Of a DNA stretch of 64,000 nucleotides, positions 23,776 through 34,501 are shown piece by piece (position 1 is the stretch's first letter; each line of letters begins with the position of its first letter). Both the position numbers and the translations under genes were made by a program. The notes beneath the pieces are model-generated. The model did not search any database. It was not told the DNA's origin and worked only from the letters and a program-made list of their open reading frames with translations. Source of the stretch: Gemmatimonadaceae bacterium. GTDB taxonomy: Bacteria; Gemmatimonadota; Gemmatimonadetes; Gemmatimonadales; Gemmatimonadaceae. The stretch is from contig DATLUQ010000013.1 in NCBI GenBank assembly GCA_035533015.1, positions 124,001-188,000 of the forward strand, written 5' to 3'.

Positions 23776-23802
23776 TATGACAGCTTATGACAAGAGTTGA
23801 CA
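23776..23802 (+). repeat. Three direct repeats (T/G)(A/T)TGACA, 10-bp phased
   Basis: TATGACA at 23776-23782, TATGACA at 23786-23792 and GTTGACA at 23796-23802 are exactly 10 bp apart, so they face the same side of the helix. The third contains the -35 box of the promoter for the following gene. Head-to-tail repeats are the kind of site bound cooperatively by excisionase/MerR-like helix-turn-helix proteins, and the next gene encodes one; autoregulation is an inference. Confidence 0.6.
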
Positions 23803-23826
23803 AATGGCGATGAAAATGGCCATAAT
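23797..23826 (+). promoter_or_regulatory. Strong sigma-70-type promoter of the HTH-EIIA/Ehr-like operon
   Basis: Perfect -35 TTGACA (23797-23802), 18-bp spacer, and -10 CATAAT (23821-23826, five of six consensus bases) in an AT-rich island within otherwise GC-rich DNA. Expected transcription start is about 23833, giving a leader of about 34 bases before the TTG at 23867. Confidence 0.7.
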
Positions 23827-23866
23827 TACTCGTCAACAATAGTGGGATGCCGAGCTGCCAGACCTG

Positions 23867-24559
23867 TTGAGCCCCAAACAACTCGCCGAATATCTGCAGT
23901 TGTCCCAGCGCACGGTGTATCGGCTGCTGGAGCGGGGCGACCTGCCCGCCGTCAAGGTCGGCGGGCAGTGGCGCTTCCGGAAGGCGACCCTGGACGAGTG
24001 GCTGGATGTGAACATGCATCGCCTCGACGCCGACTCCCTGCAGGCCCTCGAAGGTGACGAAGCGTCCGGGCAGCCGGTTCCCGCCATCGCCGACCTGATC
24101 GCCCCGGACAACGCGCGCATCACCGTGCCTGCCGGTTCGCAGGAGACCGTGATCCGGGCATTCGTAGAGAGCGTGCGGTTCCCGGAGCCGGTGTCGCGCG
24201 ATCTCGTGTGCGAGCGCGTGCTCGAACGCGAACGGCTGTGCAGCACAGCGTTGTCAGGTGGGGTGGCGCTCCTGCACACGGCACGAAGCCGGCCGCGTGT
24301 GCTTCAGGCACACGATCTGGTGGCGATCGGTCGCGTTCAGTCGCCGGTGGAATTCGGGGCGTTGGACGGCAGCGTGACCGACACGCTCATTCTCGTGCTG
24401 GGGCGGAGCGAGCGCGACCAGCTCGTGCTGCTCGCCCGACTGACGCGGCTGTGCCAGGAGCCCGGTTTCCTTTCCGCGCTGCGTTACGCGACGGACGCCG
24501 CTCAGGTGATCGAGCTCGTCCGCCGTACCGCGAGCCGGCTGTTCGTCTCGGCTCAGTGA
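23867..24559 (+). CDS. HTH (excisionase/MerR-type) DNA-binding protein fused to a PTS EIIA domain, copy 1
   Basis: Residues 1-55 form a helix-turn-helix with winged end (SPKQLAEYLQLSQRTVYRLL, VKVGGQWRFRKATLDEWL). Residues about 70-225 form a PTS EIIA type-2 (fructose/nitrogen-type) domain; the expected phospho-acceptor is His137 in GGVALLHTARS, where the usual Pro before His is Leu. Such fusions would let the phosphotransferase system change DNA binding. No HPr or EI gene is in the window. TTG 23867 is the only normal start after the upstream stop at 23840. First gene of a probable nine-gene operon; the second copy follows after 16 bases. Confidence 0.85.
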   Translation: MSPKQLAEYLQLSQRTVYRLLERGDLPAVKVGGQWRFRKATLDEWLDVNMHRLDADSLQALEGDEASGQPVPAIADLIAPDNARITVPAGSQETVIRAFVESVRFPEPVSRDLVCERVLERERLCSTALSGGVALLHTARSRPRVLQAHDLVAIGRVQSPVEFGALDGSVTDTLILVLGRSERDQLVLLARLTRLCQEPGFLSALRYATDAAQVIELVRRTASRLFVSAQ

Positions 24560-24575
24560 CCGCCTCCGGATACCC

Positions 24576-25286
24576 ATGCAACTGACGCTCCGCCAGGTCG
24601 CCTCGTACCTCGACGTGCCCGAGGCCACGGCCCGCCGCTGGATCACGGCGCGGGGGCTGCCGGCGCACCGCGTGAACGAGCGGCTCTACTGCAACGCCAT
24701 CGAACTCTGGGAGTGGGCGGTGGAGCAGGGGATCCCGGTGTCGCGCAGCCTGCTCGAGCAGGCGCAGCGCGCGCCGGACGCGGTGCCCGCGCTGTCGGCG
24801 CTCATCGCGGAGGGGGGGGTGTACCGAGACGTCGGCGGAGCGACAAAGCCGGAGGTGCTGCGCCACGTGGTCGCGCTGCTGCCGCTTCCCGACGACGTGG
24901 ACCGGGAGTTTCTGGTCACCGTGCTCGAGGCGCGGGAAGCGATGGGATCCACCGGCATCGGCGACGGCATCGCCATTCCGCATGTTCGCAATCCGATTCT
25001 CTTGCACGTGGCGCGATCCTTCGTCGCCCTCTGTCTGCTCAAACAGCCGGTGGAGTTCGAGGCGGTGGACCGTCAGCCCGTGGGCGCGCTGTTCCTAGTG
25101 GTGAGTCCCAACGTGCCGGCGCACCTGCGGATTCTTGCCAAGCTCGGATTCGTGTTGCGCGACGTGGAGCTTCGGCGGTTACTGCGCACGGCTGCGGCGA
25201 CGGACGAGATTCTGGCGCGCATCTCGGCGTTGGAGGCGGGTTCCGCCTCGAGCGCGCGTCCGGACGCCACGCGGAGCGGAGCATGA
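24576..25286 (+). CDS. HTH DNA-binding protein fused to a PTS EIIA domain, copy 2
   Basis: Same architecture as the preceding gene: helix-turn-helix at 1-50 (LTLRQVASYLDVPEATARRW) then a PTS EIIA domain at about 80-220 with the canonical active-site motif GDGIAIPHVRNP (His136). The two proteins are clearly related but diverged, so this is an old duplication. Presence of the intact His motif suggests real phosphorylation. The tail (SASSARPDATRSGA) is disordered. The stop lies 7 bases before the HyfB-type gene, tying these regulators to the membrane complex. Confidence 0.85.
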   Translation: MQLTLRQVASYLDVPEATARRWITARGLPAHRVNERLYCNAIELWEWAVEQGIPVSRSLLEQAQRAPDAVPALSALIAEGGVYRDVGGATKPEVLRHVVALLPLPDDVDREFLVTVLEAREAMGSTGIGDGIAIPHVRNPILLHVARSFVALCLLKQPVEFEAVDRQPVGALFLVVSPNVPAHLRILAKLGFVLRDVELRRLLRTAAATDEILARISALEAGSASSARPDATRSGA

Positions 25287-25293
25287 GCCGGTG

Positions 25294-27282
25294 ATGGCGT
25301 TCGCCGCCGCGATCGGGTGTTGGGCCATCGGCGCTCTTGCGGCGCTGGTCGCGCGCGGGCGTTCCATGCCTGCGGCCCTCGGCGCCGCGGGGGCCGTGGC
25401 CGGCGGGCTCGCGGCGCTGACCGCCGGTGGCACGGTGCTGGCAGGCGGCGCCCCGCGCCTGTGGGAGGCGCCGTGGAGCGTGCCCGCTGGCGCGCTCGCG
25501 CTGCGCCTCGATCCGTTGGCGGCGGTCTTCCTGTTGCCGATCGCAGTCATCGGGGCGCTCGGCGCCGTGTATGGCGTGGCCTACCAGCGAGAACATGCGC
25601 CGGCGCGCTCGAGCGCGGGGTCGTTCGCGGCCTACAACCTGCTGCTGCTGAGCATGGCGCTCGTGGTCACCGCCGCCAACCTGGTGCTTCTGATCGTGGC
25701 GTGGGAATTGATGACACTGAGCTCCTGGGCGCTGGTCGTGGAGGATCACGATCGTGGCGGTGTGCGCGTGGCGGGGCTTCAATACCTGATAGCTGGCCAT
25801 CTCGCCACCGCGGCGTTGCTGCTCATGGCATTGCTGCTGGCAGGGGCCAACAACGGCTTCGCGATCGCGCCGCTCGCGGGTCCGGCGGCGGTGCCTGCGG
25901 GGGTGCTGTTCGCGCTGGCCCTCATCGGGTTCGGAACCAAGGCCGGGATCGTGCCGATGCACGTATGGTTGCCCGACGCGCATTCCTCGGCGCCTTCGCA
26001 CGTGTCGGCGCTGATGTCGGGCGTGATGATCACGATGGGTTTCTACGGGATGGCGCGGTTCTTCCCGCTGTTCGGAGCGCCGCCCGTGTGGTGGGCCTAC
26101 GTGCTCCTGGCGCTCGGCGCGGTGGGCACGGTCGGCGGGATCCTGTTCTCATTGGCACAGCGCGACGTGAAGCGGGCGCTCGCGTACTCGACGGTCGAGA
26201 ACGCTGGGCTGACGGCGCTTGCCATGGGTGTCGGGCTCCTGGGCACGTCGCTGCACGATCCCGTCCTGGCCGGGCTCGGCTGGATGGCGGCGTTGTTGCA
26301 TCTCTGGAATCACGCGCTGGCCAAGAGCCTGCTGTTTCTCGGGTTCGGCGCCGTCGCCCTCCGCGTCCACAGTCGGGAACTCGACGCCATGGGCGGAGTG
26401 CTGCGCCGCTGGAAACTGGTGGGCGGCGTGCTTGTGCTCGGCGCGGCGGCGCTCGCGGCGCTGCCCGGGCTCAACGTGTTCGCCGGTGAATGGCTCCTGT
26501 TGCGCGCGCTGCTTTCGGGAATTCTGAACCTCGCGGGGTTCGACCGCGTGGTGCTGCTGGGCGCCCTGGCCGCACTGGCGTTCGCGGGTGGGCTCGCCGT
26601 GGCGGGGTTCACGCGCCTCGTGGGCGTCGGCCTCCTCGGCAAGCCACGTTCACCGGAGGCGGCGGACGCGCGCGAACCGGGGTGGATGACGCGTCTGCCA
26701 ATCGTGGTGTTGGGTGCCGGGTGCGTTGCGATCGCGGCGGTGCCGAGTCGGGTGGTGGGTGTGTTGGCGCCGGCGGGTAGGGGCACGGCGCCGGGCGCCG
26801 ATGTCGCCGCGGCCGGCGCCGCGCTGCTCCCATTGACGGCGCTCCTGCCCGTGCTGGGCGCGTTGGCGGTGCTCGTCGCCGCGCTGCGCGCCGCATCGGC
26901 GCGGCGATCGCCGCGCCGCGCTGACGATACGTGGGGCTGCGGGTTCGCGGGTGCGACGCCGTCCATGCAATACAGCTCCACGTCGTTCGCGGGGGGGCTC
27001 ACGACGGTCATGCAGCCGGTGCTCCGCGCGGAGACGCGGCGGCAGGGCATGGCGGACGGGCGCGGGGTGTCGGGGTCGCTGTGGCCTGCGGCCGCGTCAT
27101 GGGCTTCGGCGACGGCGGACCGCGTGCTCGAAGAGGTCTATCGGCCGGTGTTCTCAAGTGCGGGGCGCGTGGCGGCGCGCCTGCGCGCGCTTCATCGGGC
27201 CCGGGTGACGACGTCCCTGCTGTACATGGTGGCGGCCGTCGCCGTGCTGCTCGCGCTGTTGTTCCGGTCGGGGCCGGGCTGA
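25294..27282 (+). CDS. hyfB: HyfB-like antiporter-type subunit 1 of an Ehr-like complex
   Basis: A 662-residue polytopic membrane protein of the NuoL/M/Mrp antiporter family, HyfB/HycC type. It contains the TM5 glutamate (LIVAWELMTLSSW), the half-channel motif HVWLPDAHSSAPSHVSALMS, RDVKRALAYSTVENAG, and the HyfB-type C-terminus (DTWGCGFAGATPSMQYSSTS and a final TM helix). At the position where HyfB proteins have Lys in VMVKTG it has Thr247 (GVMITMG). ATG 25294 is preferred; GTG 25291 is adjacent. It should form a proton or sodium channel in the membrane arm. Confidence 0.9.
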   Translation: MAFAAAIGCWAIGALAALVARGRSMPAALGAAGAVAGGLAALTAGGTVLAGGAPRLWEAPWSVPAGALALRLDPLAAVFLLPIAVIGALGAVYGVAYQREHAPARSSAGSFAAYNLLLLSMALVVTAANLVLLIVAWELMTLSSWALVVEDHDRGGVRVAGLQYLIAGHLATAALLLMALLLAGANNGFAIAPLAGPAAVPAGVLFALALIGFGTKAGIVPMHVWLPDAHSSAPSHVSALMSGVMITMGFYGMARFFPLFGAPPVWWAYVLLALGAVGTVGGILFSLAQRDVKRALAYSTVENAGLTALAMGVGLLGTSLHDPVLAGLGWMAALLHLWNHALAKSLLFLGFGAVALRVHSRELDAMGGVLRRWKLVGGVLVLGAAALAALPGLNVFAGEWLLLRALLSGILNLAGFDRVVLLGALAALAFAGGLAVAGFTRLVGVGLLGKPRSPEAADAREPGWMTRLPIVVLGAGCVAIAAVPSRVVGVLAPAGRGTAPGADVAAAGAALLPLTALLPVLGALAVLVAALRAASARRSPRRADDTWGCGFAGATPSMQYSSTSFAGGLTTVMQPVLRAETRRQGMADGRGVSGSLWPAAASWASATADRVLEEVYRPVFSSAGRVAARLRALHRARVTTSLLYMVAAVAVLLALLFRSGPG

Positions 27283-29246
27283 TGGCGTTCGTGGCATGGA
27301 GCATCGCCCTCATGGTGGCGGCCGGCGTGCTCAACGCCGTGCTGTGGCGACGGCCCGATCTTGCCGACGCGACGTTTCGTGTGGGCCTGTTGGGCGCCGC
27401 GGTGGTGGGGTGCATCCCCGCGGTGCGTGTGCTGGCTGGAGGTTCGGTGCCCGACGTTTCGATCGCGACGCAGATGCCGGGCGGATCGTGGGTGTTCGGA
27501 TTGGACGCGCTGTCGGCGCTGTTCCTGTTGGTGATCCTCGCCGTCGGTTCGGCCTGCGCGTTCTTCGGCGTGACCTACCTGCGGGCCGGAGCGACGCGGC
27601 GCGGGGCGCGCGCGTCGCTCTTCTTTGTCGCCACGCTCATGGCTGCACTGTCGGTGGTGGTGATCGCGCGGGCCGCGCTGCCGTTCCTGATCGCGTGGGA
27701 GGCCATGGCGCTGGCCTCGTACGCCGCGATCGTGCTCGATCACGGTCAGGCCGAGGTGCGCCGCGCAGGGATGCTCTATCTCGTGGCCACGCACGTCGGG
27801 ACGCTGGCGCTGTTCGGGTTGTTCGCGGTGTGGGGAACGGGGGCCCGCAACCTCAGCTTCGCGTCGCTCGCGGCGCGGCCGCTCCACGGTGTGGCACAGG
27901 TCGCCGTCCTGGGCGCGGCGCTGCTCGGCTTCGGCATGAAGGCGGGACTCGTGCCATTTCACTTCTGGCTTCCCGAAGCCCACGCTGCCGCTCCGTCGCA
28001 CGTCTCGGCCATCATGTCGGGCGTGGTGATCAAGATGGGGATCTACGGCCTGCTGCGCGTGAGCCTTCTGATGCAGGGGCCGCCCGCCTGGTGGGGGTGG
28101 CTGCTGCTCATGGCGGGCGCGGTCTCGGGCATCCTGGGCGTCGTGTGGGCGTTGGCCCAGCACGACCTGAAGCGGCTGCTCGCGTTCCATAGCGTGGAGA
28201 ACATCGGGATCATCCTCTTAGGGATCGGTGCCGGTTCGCTGGGCATCACGTACGGCCATCCGCTGGTGGCCGTGCTCGGCTTTGCCGGCGCGGCCCTGCA
28301 CACGGTGAATCACGCGCTGTTCAAGGGTCTGCTCTTTCTGGGCGCGGGTTCGGTGGCGCACGCGACCGGAACGCGTGAGATCGACCGCCTGGGCGGGTTG
28401 GCGCGGCGCATGCCCATTACCGCGATCACCTTCCTGTTGGGTTCGGCGGCGATCGTCGGGCTGCCGCCGCTCAATGGTTTCGTGAGCGAGTGGCTGGTGT
28501 ACCGCGCCCTGCTCGACGCGGGCCTCGTGGCCAGCACGGCGCGCCTTGCCGTGCTCGCTGTCGCCGTGCTGGGATTGGTCGGTGCGCTCGCGCTGGCGTG
28601 CTTTTCCAAGGTAGTCGGCGTGATATTTCTCGGCAGCCCGCGCGATTCAACCGTGTCCGTCGCGCACGAGTCCCCGGCCGGCATGACCGGGCCGCTCATC
28701 GCGCTGGCGGCGGCGTGCGCGGCGATCGGGCTGCTGCCGGTCCTCGTGGTGGCGCCGCTGCTGCGGGTGGGTTCGCTGGTGGCCGGTACGTCGCCCACCG
28801 CGGTGTGGCTGGGTGGCGCGGACCCCGCCGCGGGCGCCGTCACCTGGTTCGTGCTTGCATTCGCGGCGACGCTGGCGGTGGGCTTGGTGATGCGGTCGCG
28901 ATGGTCGGCGCGCCGGGGCTCCACGGTGGCCGGGACGTGGGGTTGCGCATTCACCACGCCGACGGCGCGGATGCAATACACCGCGTCGTCGTTCGCTGCG
29001 CCGCTGCTCACGGCCTATCGGAGCGTGGCGGGCCTCCACACCGAGCGCACGGCACTGGCATTGGCGACGCATGCGGCGGACCCGGTGCTCGACCGGATCA
29101 TGGTGCCGGTGTGGCACGGGATCGAATCGGCGGCGCGGCGGATCCGCCCCCTGCAGCGGGGCCGGCTGTCGCAGTACCTGCTGTACATCGTGGCGGCGCT
29201 GGTGGTGGCGCTCGGATACCTGATGCTCGCGGGGTGGATGTCATGA
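27282..29246 (+). CDS. hyfB: HyfB-like antiporter-type subunit 2 of an Ehr-like complex
   Basis: A 654-residue paralogue of the preceding protein with the same plan: TM5 glutamate in LIAWEAMALASY, HFWLPEAHAAAPSHVSAIMS, and here the conserved lysine Lys251 in GVVIKMGIYG is kept. The C-terminus repeats the pattern GTWGCAFTTPTARMQYTASS and ends with a TM helix. Start and stop overlap with neighbours (TGATG; ATGA), so translation is coupled. Two HyfB-type subunits plus HyfF give three antiporter-like modules. Confidence 0.9.
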   Translation: MAFVAWSIALMVAAGVLNAVLWRRPDLADATFRVGLLGAAVVGCIPAVRVLAGGSVPDVSIATQMPGGSWVFGLDALSALFLLVILAVGSACAFFGVTYLRAGATRRGARASLFFVATLMAALSVVVIARAALPFLIAWEAMALASYAAIVLDHGQAEVRRAGMLYLVATHVGTLALFGLFAVWGTGARNLSFASLAARPLHGVAQVAVLGAALLGFGMKAGLVPFHFWLPEAHAAAPSHVSAIMSGVVIKMGIYGLLRVSLLMQGPPAWWGWLLLMAGAVSGILGVVWALAQHDLKRLLAFHSVENIGIILLGIGAGSLGITYGHPLVAVLGFAGAALHTVNHALFKGLLFLGAGSVAHATGTREIDRLGGLARRMPITAITFLLGSAAIVGLPPLNGFVSEWLVYRALLDAGLVASTARLAVLAVAVLGLVGALALACFSKVVGVIFLGSPRDSTVSVAHESPAGMTGPLIALAAACAAIGLLPVLVVAPLLRVGSLVAGTSPTAVWLGGADPAAGAVTWFVLAFAATLAVGLVMRSRWSARRGSTVAGTWGCAFTTPTARMQYTASSFAAPLLTAYRSVAGLHTERTALALATHAADPVLDRIMVPVWHGIESAARRIRPLQRGRLSQYLLYIVAALVVALGYLMLAGWMS

Positions 29247-30166
29247 TGGCGTTCGTCGACCGGAGCGCGCTCGCGGCGCTGGCCGTCTTGTTGCTCGTGG
29301 CGCCGGCGCTTCCGGGGATCGCCATCAAGACCAAGTCGCTGCTCACGGGACGGCGCGGGGCGCCGGTGCTACAGTTGTATCGCGATCTGGCCAAGCTGGC
29401 GCGCAAGGGTTCGGTGTACAGCACCACCACCACGTGGGTCTTCCGCGCCGGGCCCGTGGTGGTGCTGGCGTCGCTTCTCGCGGCCGCGCTCTTGCTTCCG
29501 CTCAATGGCCGCGTCGCGCCGATTCATTTTGCCGGCGACCTCGTGGCGTTCGCGGGGCTGCTCGCCCTGGCGCGGTTCGCGCTCGTGCTCTCGGGCCTCG
29601 ACACCGGTTCCAGCTTCGAGGGCATGGGGGCGAGCCGCGAAGTCACGTTTGCGAGCTTCGCCGAGCCGGCGCTGTTTCTCTGCTTCGTTGGGCTCGTGCT
29701 GGTCACCGGGCACCTGTCGCTCAGCAACATGCTAGGCCCGGCGCTCGCCACGGCATGGCCGCGCGACACGGCCTCGCTGGTGCTGGTGGGGCTGGCGCTG
29801 TTCGTGCTCCTGCTCGCCGAGAATTCGCGCGTGCCGGTGGACGATCCGGCCACGCATCTCGAGCTGACGATGGTCCACGAAGTCATCGTGCTCGATCACA
29901 GCGGGCCCGATCTCGCGCTCATCCTGTATGGCAGCGCGCTCAAGCTCTCCATCTTCGCGGCGGTGTTGGTGAGCATGGCGGCGCCGCGCGGCGCGCTCCC
30001 GATGTGGGCGGGGTTGGCGTTGCTCGTCGTGGGGCTGGCCGTGGTGGCCGTGATGGTGGGCGTCGTCGAGTCGGTCATGGCGCGCCTGCGGCTCACGCGC
30101 GTACCGCAGTTGATCGTGGGCGCCGGGGCCCTGGCGCTATTCGGCATCATCCTCCTGCTCCGCTGA
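29243..30166 (+). CDS. hyfC: HyfC/NuoH-like membrane anchor subunit
   Basis: A 307-residue membrane protein of the NuoH/HycD/HyfC family, which links the redox arm to the antiporter arm. Visible are GIAIKTKSLLTGRRGAPVLQ (N-terminal loop), a glutamate-rich central loop (SSFEGMGASREVTFASFAEP) and the highly conserved ENSRVPVDDPATHLELTM with VHEVIVLDHSGPDLAL. About eight TM segments. Start is one of two adjacent ATGs (29243 or 29246). Confidence 0.92.
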   Translation: MMAFVDRSALAALAVLLLVAPALPGIAIKTKSLLTGRRGAPVLQLYRDLAKLARKGSVYSTTTTWVFRAGPVVVLASLLAAALLLPLNGRVAPIHFAGDLVAFAGLLALARFALVLSGLDTGSSFEGMGASREVTFASFAEPALFLCFVGLVLVTGHLSLSNMLGPALATAWPRDTASLVLVGLALFVLLLAENSRVPVDDPATHLELTMVHEVIVLDHSGPDLALILYGSALKLSIFAAVLVSMAAPRGALPMWAGLALLVVGLAVVAVMVGVVESVMARLRLTRVPQLIVGAGALALFGIILLLR

Positions 30167-30168
30167 CC

Positions 30169-30807
30169 ATGCAGACCAGCGCGGAACTGCTCCTCCTGCT
30201 CGTGGTGCTCACCAACTTCGCGGTGCTCGGCACCTCGCGGCTGCGCACGTGTATCCGCGCGGTGGCGGCGCAGGGCCTTCTCCTCGGCCTGTTGCCGGTG
30301 GCGCTCGCGTCGCACCTCACGTTGCACGTGGGGAGTCTCGCGGTGGGGACGGTGCTGGTGAAGGCGGTGATCCTGCCCTGGTTCCTGCTCTGGGCCATTC
30401 GCGAGGCGGCCGTGCGGCGCGAGGTGGAGCCGCTGGTCGGGTTCATCACCTCGCTGCTGCTGGGTGCGTTGGCGCTCGCCCTCGCGTTTGCGATCTCGGC
30501 GCGACTTCCCGCCGGCGACGTGCGCGAGCCGCTGCTCGTGCCCGTCGCCTTGGCCACGGTGATGATCGGATTGGTGGTGCTCACCACGCGGCGCAAGGCG
30601 CTCACGCAGGTCGTGGGCTACCTGATGCTCGAGAATGGCATCTATCTCTTCGGCCTCACGCAGACGGAGAGCGTGCCGTTCCTCCTGGAGCTCGGCGTTC
30701 TGCTCGACGTGTTCGCCGGCGTGTTCATCATGGGGATCGTGGTCTTTCACATCAACCGCGAGTTCGATTCGCTCGATTCGGCGCGGCTGACCGAGCTCAA
30801 GGACTGA
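30169..30807 (+). CDS. hyfE: HyfE/NuoK-like membrane subunit
   Basis: A 212-residue hydrophobic protein similar in length and order to HyfE, which contains a NuoK-like unit. Six or so TM helices; the region GYLMLENGIYLFGL carries the NuoK-type conserved glutamate, followed by LGVLLDVFAGVFIMGI. Two bases separate it from hyfC, and it overlaps the next gene by TGATG. Confidence 0.9.
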   Translation: MQTSAELLLLLVVLTNFAVLGTSRLRTCIRAVAAQGLLLGLLPVALASHLTLHVGSLAVGTVLVKAVILPWFLLWAIREAAVRREVEPLVGFITSLLLGALALALAFAISARLPAGDVREPLLVPVALATVMIGLVVLTTRRKALTQVVGYLMLENGIYLFGLTQTESVPFLLELGVLLDVFAGVFIMGIVVFHINREFDSLDSARLTELKD

Positions 30808-32246
30808 TGCGCCTGATTGCGTTGGTCCTACTCCCGGTGCTCGCCGCCGCGATCACCGGCGCCGTGCCGTCGCCGCGGGTGACGCGGTGGCGCGTCGCGG
30901 TGTTGGTCGGCACGGCGGCCGTGCATCTCGCCATCACCGCGACGTTGTGGGGCGCCCCAGGCGGGAGCGCGATCAACGGGTGGCTCGGCGACGATGCCCT
31001 CGGGCTCATCGTGCTCACGCTCACCAGCGTGCTGTTCTTCGTGACGGCGATCTACACCGTGGGCTACCTGCAGCGCGCGACGCCGCGTGGGGGCCGCGTG
31101 TTCGTGAGCGGCCTGCTCGGGTTCCTTGCCGCGACCACGGTCGTGGCGCTCAGCCAGCACCTGGCCATGCTGTGGGTGGGGCTCGAGGCGACGACCTTGA
31201 CGGTGGCGCCGCTCATCTTCCACCGGCACGATCGCCGGTCGTTGGAAGCCGTCTGGAAGTACCTCGTGATCTCGTCGGTGGGCATCGCGCTGGCATTGCT
31301 CGGGATGTTCTTTCTTGCGAGCGCGCAGCACGGCGTCACTGGCAATCCGCTGATCCTCGGCGACCTCGTGGCGCACGCTCGCCAGTTGCAGCCGGCGTGG
31401 CTGCGCGCTGCGTTCCTGTTCCTGCTCGTCGGCTTCGGCACCAAGATGGGGCTCGCCCCCATGCATACATGGAAGCCGGATACCTACGGCGAAGCGCCGG
31501 CCCTCGTGGGCGGGCTGATGGCGGGCGCGCTCACCAGTTGTGCGTTCCTCGGCGTCGCGCGCATCACAGAGATCACCATGGCGGCGGGCCTCGGCCCGTT
31601 CGTGCAGCCGGTACTGCTCGGGTTCGGGCTGCTGTCGCTGGCCACGGCGGCGGCGTTCATCATCGGGCAGGGGGATCTCAAGCGATTGCTCGCGTACTCG
31701 AGCGTCGAGCACATGGGCCTGCTGGTGCTCGGGCTCGGCCTGGGCGGCGTGGGCGCGTACGGCACCGTGCTCCATCTCGTGAACAACGGCCTCGCCAAGG
31801 GCTGGCTGTTCCTCGTGGCTGGCAACGTGGTGCTGGCCACCGGCACCTCGGCGGCCGCGGGCAATCGCGGACTCATCCGCACGCTTCCGGTATCCGGCGT
31901 GCTGCTGGTGGCCGGCCTGTTCGCGGTCACCGGCTCGCCGCCGTTCGGCTTGTTTCTCAGCGAATTCACCATCCTCCGCGCCGCCGTCAACGGCGGACAC
32001 CTGTGGATCGCCGTTGTCACGCTGCTGCTGCTCGCCGTGATCTTCGTTGGGATGGCCATGCTCATCCTGAACATGGCGCTCGGCGAACCCGAGCCTGGCG
32101 TGCCCGTGGTGCGCGAAAGCCCGTGGCTGGTGGCCGGTCCGATCGCGCTGGCGGGCGCGGTGCTGCTCCTCGGATTGTACATCCCGGCGCCGCTGCAGCG
32201 CGCGCTGGTGCACGCGGCCGCGGCGCTCGGCGGGAGGGCGCCGTGA
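30807..32246 (+). CDS. hyfF: HyfF-like antiporter-type subunit
   Basis: A 479-residue polytopic protein of the antiporter-like family, HyfF type. The TM5 glutamate lies in WVGLEATTLTVAPLIF, the half-channel segment in KMGLAPMHTWKPDTYGEAPA, and GDLKRLLAYSSVEHMG follows. The TM8 position that is Lys in other subunits is Ser (GALTSCAF), as is common for HyfF (polar, not Lys). Third antiporter-like subunit of the complex. Confidence 0.9.
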   Translation: MRLIALVLLPVLAAAITGAVPSPRVTRWRVAVLVGTAAVHLAITATLWGAPGGSAINGWLGDDALGLIVLTLTSVLFFVTAIYTVGYLQRATPRGGRVFVSGLLGFLAATTVVALSQHLAMLWVGLEATTLTVAPLIFHRHDRRSLEAVWKYLVISSVGIALALLGMFFLASAQHGVTGNPLILGDLVAHARQLQPAWLRAAFLFLLVGFGTKMGLAPMHTWKPDTYGEAPALVGGLMAGALTSCAFLGVARITEITMAAGLGPFVQPVLLGFGLLSLATAAAFIIGQGDLKRLLAYSSVEHMGLLVLGLGLGGVGAYGTVLHLVNNGLAKGWLFLVAGNVVLATGTSAAAGNRGLIRTLPVSGVLLVAGLFAVTGSPPFGLFLSEFTILRAAVNGGHLWIAVVTLLLLAVIFVGMAMLILNMALGEPEPGVPVVRESPWLVAGPIALAGAVLLLGLYIPAPLQRALVHAAAALGGRAP

Positions 32247-33754
32247 CAGCGTTCAGCGCGCTGGGCCTGCGCAATCGCCGCGCGGTGTCGTTCGAGGCCG
32301 TGCCGACGGAGTCTGTCGACGACTTTCGCCGCACCGTGATCGTGGCGGTGCGCGACGGCTGGCGGGTGGTCGCGCTGTTCGGCATGCCCGAAGGGAGCGA
32401 CCGGACGCGCATCGTCGCCGTGCTCGCCGACGACACGCGCGGCGAACTTGGCGCGACGAGCACGGTGGTCGGCGATCGCTATCCTGCGCTCACGCCCGAG
32501 TGCCCCCAGGTGCACGCCTTCGAGCGGGAGATCGCCGAGCAGTGTGGCGTGACTCCCGAGGGCCACCCCTGGCTGAAGCCGCTGCGCCGGCATCTGCCCG
32601 ATCATCGACCGCCGGCGCGCGCCGAGGTTGTGCTCGATCCCGAGCGCCATCCGTTCTTCCGCGTCGAGGGTTCCGAGGTGCACGAGGTGGCGGTGGGTCC
32701 AGTGCACGCTGGCGTGATCGAGCCGGGGCACTTCCGGTTTCAGGCCCACGGCGAGGAAGTACTGTTCCTGGAGATCATGCTCGGCTACCAGCATCGGGGT
32801 GTGGAGCGCCTGTTGGAGACGACGACCGCGGAGCGCGCCGTGCTCGTGGCGGAATCCATCGCCGGCGACACCGTGATTGGCCACGTGGGCGCCTACTGCG
32901 GCGCCATCGAGGCGCTGGCGCGTTGCCGGAAAACGCCGCGCGCGCAGGCGATCCGCGGCATCGCGCTCGAGATCGAGCGGCTGGCGAATCACATCGGAGA
33001 TCTGGGCGCCATCGCAGGCGACGTGGCGTATCAACCGGCGGCCGCCTATTTCGGCGCGCTACGGGGCGAATGTCTCAATCTGTTGATGACGGTGTCCGGC
33101 AATCGGTACGGTCGCGGGTTGATCCGGCCGGGCGGGGTGAGCTGGGACCTCCCGCCGGAGATGGCGGCCGAGATGCGTTCGCGACTCGAAGTGCTGCGTC
33201 TAGAATTGGAGCCGGTGGCAGCGCTGATGTTCGAGAGCGCGTCGGTGCAGGCGCGCCTCGAAGGGGTGGGGGCGGTATCGCACGACCAATGCATCGAACT
33301 GGGATTCGTGGGGCCGGTTGCCCGGGCGTGCGAGGTGGCGCGCGACGTGCGGCACGACCATCCGTACGGAATCTTCAGGTTCGCGCACATTCCCGTGGCT
33401 ACGGGATGGGCGGGCGACGTCCACGCGCGCGCGCTGGTCCGGTGGCACGAGGTGCGGCGCTCGCTGGAGTTCGCGATCGAACAGCTCGGCGCGCTACCTC
33501 GGGGCGAGACGCGTATCCCGTGTGGTCCGCTGCGCCCCAATGAACTCGTCGTGGCGTTGCAGGAAGGCTGGCGCGGCGAGTTGGCTCACGTGGTCGTGAC
33601 CGACGATCGGGGCGCGATCCGCCGCCATAAGGTGGTGGACGCGTCGTTCCACAACTGGCCCGCGCTGGCCGCGTCGATGCCGGGCAACCAGATCTCGGAC
33701 TTTCCCCTGTGCAATAAGAGTTTCAATCTCTCGTATGCCGGCCATGATCTCTAA
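32243..33754 (+). CDS. hyfG: HyfG/HycE-like large subunit lacking NiFe ligands (Ehr-like)
   Basis: A 503-residue fusion of a NuoC-like N-terminal domain (about 1-125) and a NuoD/hydrogenase-large-subunit domain (about 145-503, EIMLGYQHRGVERLLE). In true group 4 NiFe hydrogenases two CxxC motifs bind the metal centre. Here the first, expected as RxCGxC, reads SIAGDT at 205-210, and the second, expected as DPCxxC, reads DFPLCNK at 486-492. At least three of four cysteine ligands are therefore missing, so hydrogen chemistry is not expected. Architecture matches described energy-converting-hydrogenase-related (Ehr) complexes. Substrate unknown. GTG start overlaps hyfF stop. Confidence 0.9.
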   Translation: MTAFSALGLRNRRAVSFEAVPTESVDDFRRTVIVAVRDGWRVVALFGMPEGSDRTRIVAVLADDTRGELGATSTVVGDRYPALTPECPQVHAFEREIAEQCGVTPEGHPWLKPLRRHLPDHRPPARAEVVLDPERHPFFRVEGSEVHEVAVGPVHAGVIEPGHFRFQAHGEEVLFLEIMLGYQHRGVERLLETTTAERAVLVAESIAGDTVIGHVGAYCGAIEALARCRKTPRAQAIRGIALEIERLANHIGDLGAIAGDVAYQPAAAYFGALRGECLNLLMTVSGNRYGRGLIRPGGVSWDLPPEMAAEMRSRLEVLRLELEPVAALMFESASVQARLEGVGAVSHDQCIELGFVGPVARACEVARDVRHDHPYGIFRFAHIPVATGWAGDVHARALVRWHEVRRSLEFAIEQLGALPRGETRIPCGPLRPNELVVALQEGWRGELAHVVVTDDRGAIRRHKVVDASFHNWPALAASMPGNQISDFPLCNKSFNLSYAGHDL

Positions 33755-33787
33755 CGCCACGTGGCGCGCGCGCGCCGGAGAATGCCG

Positions 33788-34501
33788 ATGTTCGATCTGC
33801 TGAGAACCCGAATGGCGCAGGGGATGCGCACGTCGCCGTTCCCCGGGCGCGACGTGGAGTTTCCGGACCGGTTCCGCGGCTTGCCGGTTCTTGAAGCGTC
33901 GCCTGGTGGTGCGCCACTGGACGTCGGCGCTTGCCTGTTCAGCCCCGAGGAGGCCGGCACCGGCGCCGGCGGCACCGTGCGCTACACGGCGGACTACCGC
34001 ATGGCCGCGTCGAGTCGCGCGGCGCTCGTCTCGAGCACGGGGCAGGTGGAGCTCGCGGGGGCGCTGGACGCCGAGATGCGCCGGTTGTTCGGTCGCTCGC
34101 TCAAGCTCCGGTCCGTGGTGGCGGGTAGCTGTGGGGGCTGCGAAGGGGAACTCAACGCGATGAGCAACGTCGTGTTCGACATGGCGCGGTTCGGGGTGCA
34201 GTTCGTCGCCTCGCCGCGGCACGCCGACGGGCTCGTCATCACGGGCGCGCTGAATCGCAACATGCTCGCTGCCGTGCGGAAGACGTACGAGGCCACGCCC
34301 AGCCCGCGACTCGTGATCGCGGTCGGTGCATGCGCCATCGCGGGTGGACCGTTCGCCGGCAGCCCCGAGGTCGGCATGGATCCGGACCTGCCCATCGACC
34401 TGTACGTGCCAGGCTGCCCACCGCACCCCCTCACGGTGCTCGACGGTCTGCTGCGTCTCCTCGGCCGTATGCCCCGCGAACGCGTGCATTCGAGCGGTTG
34501 A
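33788..34501 (+). CDS. hyfI: HyfI/NuoB-like small subunit with degenerate HycF-like N-terminus
   Basis: A 237-residue protein. Residues about 100-237 are the NuoB/HycG fold with all four cluster ligands: Cys115 and Cys118 (GSCGGCEGE), Cys182 (GACAIAGG) and Cys210 (PGCPPHP), so one 4Fe-4S (N2-like) cluster should be present. Residues 1-85 look like a decayed HycF/HyfH ferredoxin subunit: MFDLLRTRMAQGMRTSPFP matches the HycF start, FRGLPVLE the FRGKP segment, and ACLFSPEE the second cluster motif with only Cys49 left. CGGAG-type Shine-Dalgarno before ATG 33788 fixes the start. Last gene of the unit. Confidence 0.88.
   Translation: MFDLLRTRMAQGMRTSPFPGRDVEFPDRFRGLPVLEASPGGAPLDVGACLFSPEEAGTGAGGTVRYTADYRMAASSRAALVSSTGQVELAGALDAEMRRLFGRSLKLRSVVAGSCGGCEGELNAMSNVVFDMARFGVQFVASPRHADGLVITGALNRNMLAAVRKTYEATPSPRLVIAVGACAIAGGPFAGSPEVGMDPDLPIDLYVPGCPPHPLTVLDGLLRLLGRMPRERVHSSG

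Follow-up and report, generated by a model that had tools for sequence, protein, structure and literature searches.

Introduction

The sensory domain considered in this report has the same fold as the EIIA-Ntr (PtsN) and EIIA-Fru/Mtl proteins (PF00359). PtsN is a standalone protein that acts by protein contact, and EIIA-Ntr proteins, which dock on TrkA or KdpD, regulate K+ transport proteins in this manner. EIIA-like domains also occur in the transcription regulators MtlR, LicR, and LevR, which are controlled by PTS phosphorylation. These PRD-type regulators (named for the PTS regulation domain) target sugar genes.

Another relevant group consists of the excisionase-type (HTH_17) proteins BldC, RdfS, and AlpA, which are small winged helix-turn-helix (wHTH) proteins. 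BldC uses a 9-bp repeat and has no sensory domain, and it binds direct repeats cooperatively to form head-to-tail multimers (PMC5859096). Finally, energy-converting hydrogenase-related (Ehr) complexes are encoded by seven-subunit, Hyf-like gene clusters in which the large subunit lacks Ni-Fe ligands. Ehr complexes are related to complex I and the group-4 hydrogenases and are widely distributed, and we know of no established reaction or physiological role for them. In the literature outside subscription journals, we found no description of a regulator of Ehr or of any connection between Ehr and a protein that fuses an HTH to an EIIA domain.

Two such fusions are encoded in tandem in a 64,000-nucleotide stretch of DNA from a Gemmatimonadaceae bacterium (hereafter the window), where they head an Ehr operon. 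Unlike PtsN, these HTH-EIIA proteins carry their EIIA domain fused to a DNA-binding wHTH. They resemble MtlR, LicR, and LevR in placing an EIIA-like domain in a regulator, but they lack a PRD, have a different type of HTH, and neighbor an ion-pump operon. They share the small winged HTH of BldC and its relatives, but they are associated with a 10-bp TGTCC repeat and possess an EIIA sensor. The protein encoded by the second gene (gene 2) shares the catalytic His, the second His, and the Arg of its EIIA relatives, whereas that encoded by the first (gene 1) lacks the second His. We consider it reasonably likely that HTH-EIIA proteins serve as a dedicated, PTS-gated, autoregulating, and probably repressing switch for Ehr. 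To our knowledge, this would be the first PTS-gated regulator with direct-repeat (BldC-type) DNA binding.

Organization of the locus

The earlier note on this DNA had described two adjacent genes, each joining an HTH to a PTS EIIA domain, with gaps of 16 bases between them and 7 bases to hyfB. Both open reading frames were confirmed with this spacing (Table 1). Gene 1 and gene 2 precede a seven-gene operon running from hyfB to hyfI, whose products are, by Pfam matches, of the HyfB, HyfB, HyfC, HyfE, HyfF, HyfG, and HyfI types and whose reading frames overlap or nearly do so. The cluster is assigned to Ehr on the basis of a HyfG-like subunit without Ni-Fe cysteines together with antiporter-like, NuoH-like, and NuoB-like subunits. 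In HyfG, the sequence LGYQHRG(V/I)E replaces the N-terminal Ni-Fe CxxC, as it does in the homologues inspected in a 51-sequence alignment, which also share the C-terminal motif ISDFPLCNKSFNLSYxGHDL. A single near-consensus promoter was found, upstream of gene 1, and a search between gene 1 and gene 2 revealed no terminator-like site. We also considered that the second HyfB might be paired with the second HTH-EIIA, and rejected this idea because the pairing is not strict across loci.

Table 1. Predicted features of the HTH-EIIA and Ehr locus, in window coordinates.
Feature	Position	Strand	Remarks
Phased direct-repeat operator (predicted)	23778..23802	+	three TGACA boxes at 23778, 23788, 23798
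Sigma-70-type promoter (predicted), TTGACA-N18-CATAAT	23797..23826	+	11/12 consensus matches
Gene 1, HTH_17 + EIIA(Ntr)-like fusion	23867..24559	+	TTG start; alternative CTG at 23855
Gene 2, HTH_17 + EIIA(Ntr)-like fusion	24576..25286	+	active site intact: R120, H136, H183
HyfB-type antiporter-like subunit, first copy	25294..27282	+	Proton_antipo_M E=1.7e-41; hydrogenase-4 subunit B-like
HyfB-type antiporter-like subunit, second copy	27282..29246	+	Proton_antipo_M E=2e-52
HyfC/NuoH-like membrane subunit	29243..30166	+	NADHdh E=1.4e-29
HyfE/NuoK-like subunit	30169..30807	+	Oxidored_q2 E=1.7e-6
HyfF-type antiporter-like subunit	30807..32246	+	Proton_antipo_M E=3.9e-45
HyfG/NuoD-like large subunit	32243..33754	+	without N-terminal [NiFe] CxxC; LGYQHRG instead, the Ehr signature
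HyfI/NuoB-like small subunit	33782..34501 (start 33761 or 33782)	+	Oxidored_q6 E=3.9e-28; CxxC, GACA, PGCPP cysteines

Domains and active sites of the two fusion proteins

Both proteins exceed the curated Pfam cut-offs for HTH_17 (E=7e-18 for gene 1 and 1.3e-7 for gene 2) and for PTS_EIIA_2 (3.5e-16 and 6.2e-24, respectively). NCBIfam assigns the HTH to the 'excisionase family', with gene 1 above the cut-off, and neither Pfam nor NCBIfam gave a match to a PRD in either protein. The EIIA domain scores 65.3 bits against the PtsN equivalog TIGR01419, for which the cut-off is 138.7, and is, judging from its sequence, related to PtsN but not PtsN itself. The modeled EIIA domains of both proteins match EIIA-Ntr structures (TM ~0.8 to 1A6J, 3URR, and 2A0J; Foldseek E ~1e-8), and both models display the order of elements of a wHTH.

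The candidate phospho-histidines named earlier, H137 of gene 1 and H136 of gene 2, align with the catalytic His73 of E. coli EIIA-Ntr. Among 102 gene-2-type proteins, a set that includes one gene 1 copy, the catalytic His (H136) is present in 102, the Arg (R120) in 101, and the second His (H183) in 100. The EIIA domain is the most conserved part of gene 2. The active site of gene 1 is degenerate: it retains H137 and R121, and in gene 2 numbering P135 is replaced by L, R138 by A, and H183 by Q. The gene 1 orthologues of five related genomes share the Leu preceding the retained His and the Gln in place of the second His; the copy in genome G142 is canonical at these positions.

These differences bear on the idea that the regulator is independent of phosphorylation and uses its EIIA domain only for oligomerization or ligand binding. 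Gene 1, which lacks the equivalents of H183, P135, and R138, is in keeping with this idea, and therefore at least one of the two EIIA domains may not act as a phosphocarrier. However, H136, R120, and H183 are essentially invariant among about 100 gene-2-type proteins, and of 20 genomes tested, 19 have genes for EI and HPr, among them all 15 Gemmatimonadota with Ehr. Phosphorylation-independent action thus seems improbable to us.

The genome that contains the window encodes one EI, one HPr, an HPr kinase, an EIIA-Man, and an EIID. It carries three EIIA-2 domains, two of which are those of gene 1 and gene 2. The only stand-alone PtsN-like EIIA gene of the genome (contig C54) is adjoined by a transposase-like gene (L001, 333-1298, minus strand), which from our own reading of the sequence is presumably of the IS1595 type.

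Gene 1 has no ATG start. Its relatives have ATG or GTG, before P-D-L-L, at the position of the CTG at 23855, and G024 likewise has CTG there. This codon (CTGCCAGACCTGTTGAGC; M-P-D-L-L-S-P-K...) may therefore be the true start of gene 1.

A quick tree, whose supports are modest and whose branches are long, places gene 2 together with the HTH-EIIA that other Gemmatimonadota have in single copy, and we regard gene 2 as orthologous to the single-copy HTH-EIIA that recurs in other phyla. Gene 1 and its orthologues branch off deeply as a clade of their own, near third copies from Planctomycetota, one of which lies downstream of hyfI as in G142. The tree thus gives no support to the idea that gene 1 arose from gene 2 in a recent tandem duplication. 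Gene 1 is best viewed as a derived, partly degenerate second copy. In G142 and in a Phycisphaerales genome, gene-1-like HTH-EIIA genes follow hyfI and thus close the Ehr operon (L036, 3477-4211, minus strand; L129, 19656-20327).

HTH-EIIA genes are linked to Ehr across phyla

The search of genomes for co-occurrence of HTH-EIIA genes with hyfB-type operons that had been suggested for this locus was positive, both within the phylum and beyond it. Among 150 genomes of Gemmatimonadota, a full-length gene-2-type HTH-EIIA (E<1e-40) and the HyfG of Ehr (14 at E<1e-140 and one cut by a contig end) are found in the same 15 genomes, and neither is found in the other 135. Wherever the contig is unbroken in these Ehr-bearing genomes, HTH-EIIA lies directly upstream of hyfB.

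With 15 aligned gene 2 proteins as query, 577 relatives were identified among 84,980 species genomes. The best 80 loci derive from Gemmatimonadota, Eisenbacteria, Planctomycetota, Thermodesulfobacteriota, Myxococcota, Latescibacterota, Goldiibacteriota, Omnitrophota, Verrucomicrobiota, Spirochaetota, Elusimicrobiota, Acidobacteriota, Fibrobacterota, Kiritimatiellota, Hydrogenedentota, Zixibacteriota, and Glassbacteria. Of 77 loci whose sequence continues downstream for at least 400 nt, 70 have hyfB as the next gene on the same strand, representing at least 15 phyla. In several Desulfuromonadales, which are relatives of Geobacter (L124, L126, L131, L133, and L137), the Ehr cluster is divergent from a pair formed by HTH-EIIA and hyfB. 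Geobacter and Geomonas, which include culturable laboratory strains, carry HTH-EIIA and hyfB genes.

The reverse test began with HyfG in 199 Planctomycetota genomes. Of 17 close Ehr clusters with complete upstream context, 13 are preceded by HTH-EIIA; of 5 clusters from a more distant Ehr subclade whose upstream regions are present, none is. The link is therefore strong but confined to one large branch of Ehr, and because HTH-EIIA is absent from 4 of the 17 clusters and from all 5 of the second subclade, it is not essential for Ehr. Members of the second subclade (L053 and L194-L199) show ~38-41% HyfG identity, and L194-L198 are without HTH-EIIA.

These counts also address whether HTH-EIIA is an unrelated gene that resides beside Ehr by chance or by hitch-hiking. 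A few solitary HTH-EIIA genes exist (e.g., L117), and some Ehr clusters have no HTH-EIIA, as chance linkage would allow. However, the perfect co-occurrence within the phylum and the same-strand position directly upstream of hyfB in so many phyla make this explanation so implausible that we reject it.

The tandem arrangement of the window proved not to be the typical unit, since a single HTH-EIIA is the rule across loci. Pairs are found, as a lineage-specific addition, in the lineage of the window and, separately, in some members of Planctomycetota and one of Latescibacterota (L075, L096, L100, and L129), and we therefore rejected the tandem pair as a conserved unit.

A predicted direct-repeat operator at HTH-EIIA promoters

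The third TGACA box upstream of gene 1 lies inside the -35 hexamer of the predicted promoter. Approximately 0.0 promoters of this quality are expected in shuffled sequences, and the spacing is kept in relatives. The exact triple TGACA pattern has a single occurrence in the 3.03 Mb genome, and a reversed control has none. Slightly altered forms of the pattern precede gene 1 in G024, G225, G226, and G181, and it is degenerate or partly inverted in G167 and G105.

An unbiased scan of k-mers and spacings found GACA/TGTC repeated at exactly 10 bp in 34 of 97 HTH-EIIA upstream regions, versus a mean of 2.6, which ranks first by far among all 4-mers and spacings; the same count in random windows from the same contigs is about 1. 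These pooled counts are decisive; a generic triple-repeat score calculated region by region is too weak (below 0.05 in 9 of 105). The repeat has the consensus wTGTCCnnnwwTGTCmA in either direction, with the strict form TGTCC-N5-TGTCCA. The strict form is present in 30 of 97 HTH-EIIA upstream regions and in 0 of 397 regions that precede other genes of these contigs (Fisher 1e-23), where the motif was derived from the set in which it was counted, the control set is external, and shared ancestry inflates the p-values. Four further Planctomycetota loci outside the first set, reached via HyfG, also carry the repeat. No strict repeat was found in the gaps between HTH-EIIA and hyfB, or upstream of eight Ehr clusters that have no HTH-EIIA. 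Elsewhere in other genomes, exact TGTCCN5TGTCCA sites number 0-7 each, and the reversed control is similar in several; therefore, we do not claim a genome-wide regulon.

About half of the HTH-EIIA promoters have no recognizable 10-bp repeat, including those of Geobacter relatives, such as the Desulfuromonadales loci listed above, and those of Gemmatimonadota that have gene 2 alone. Among the latter, viewed ~100-200 bases upstream of HTH-EIIA in L042, L040, and L063, some carry at a promoter-like site an inverted repeat, TTGAAC-N4-GTTCAA, in place of the 10-bp repeat; this inverted repeat may serve another regulator as operator.

The position of the repeats is relevant to the direction of control. 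Repressor action is the probable mode because the repeats cover the -35 element in the window and, in other loci, are found close to where the transcript is expected to begin. An alternative is that the repeats are activator sites from which the protein recruits RNA polymerase at -45/-55, as might be suggested by two of the three repeats of the window being upstream of the -35 element. However, the third repeat coincides with the -35 hexamer, the promoter is already near consensus, and in many other loci the repeats are ~32-60 nt before the start codon, which is near the expected transcript start. We consider activation unlikely, though worth keeping in mind. In some loci (L088 and L097), two repeat pairs in opposite orientation flank the promoter.

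The repeats could instead belong to another regulator. At repeat-bearing promoters, the HTH-EIIA protein has Y20 in 35 of 37 cases, Q36 in 37 of 37, R38 in 37 of 37, and F39 in 35 of 37, and these residues are much rarer where the repeat is absent, although the significance of this difference is inflated by shared ancestry. The matching, putatively DNA-reading residues are retained in gene 1 (TVYR and QWRF), whereas the corresponding residues of gene 2 are R, R, Y, and C. In addition, gene 1 of G105 consists of an HTH only (~62 codons) and is directly followed by a complete gene 2. The matching residues of gene 1 and the HTH-only form in G105 therefore suggest that gene 1 reads DNA and gene 2 senses phosphate. 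The best BldC chain found with the gene 1 HTH is 6amk, a weak match (E=0.037), and this weakness, like the 9-bp rather than 10-bp repeat unit of BldC, counts against the parallel with BldC.

The earlier note proposed that PTS state controls the ion-pumping complex or that the proteins touch it directly. The specific predicted direct-repeat operator favors control, and the contact half of the proposal finds no such backing. Contact would mean that EIIA docks on the Ehr complex and gates ion pumping by its phosphorylation, leaving the HTH with autoregulation only or as a vestige. EIIA-Ntr is generally known to control K+ transport proteins by contact, and a docking role would also suit the wing of gene 2, which has diverged from the DNA-reading consensus, and its highly conserved EIIA domain. 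However, all full-length homologues retain the HTH, a specific operator is predicted at the promoter, and one relative (G105) has lost the EIIA domain of gene 1 while keeping its HTH. Given these observations, we have little confidence in docking.

Proposed mechanism and implications

Returning to the PTS-gated transcriptional switch that we favor, we propose that the HTH domains would bind the repeats side by side and head to tail, as BldC does, and that binding at the third repeat would keep RNA polymerase out. As this repeat coincides with the -35 box, we predict that the operon as a whole is autorepressed. The state of the PEP-EI-HPr relay, which would reflect the PEP:pyruvate ratio and thus carbon or energy status, would set the phosphorylation of H136, and this modification would change the assembly of the protein on DNA. 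In the lineage of the window, the job seems to be split such that the DNA-reading HTH comes from gene 1 and the phospho-sensing EIIA from gene 2, and perhaps the two proteins form a mixed oligomer.

More broadly, we lean slightly toward the view that a PTS-controlled family of BldC-like HTH–EIIA-Ntr proteins governs Ehr in at least 15 phyla via a 10-bp direct-repeat operator, and that in the lineage of the window this regulator has been divided into cooperating gene 1 and gene 2 protomers.

From a regulator that is conserved and whose sensor is of a known kind, one would learn when cells want the Ehr pump. If Ehr use is tied to PTS state, it is therefore tied to carbon or energy status, and our analysis suggests that this status switches the pump on and off. 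The operator and the co-varying HTH residues offer a concrete handle for tests and for finding regulons in culturable hosts.
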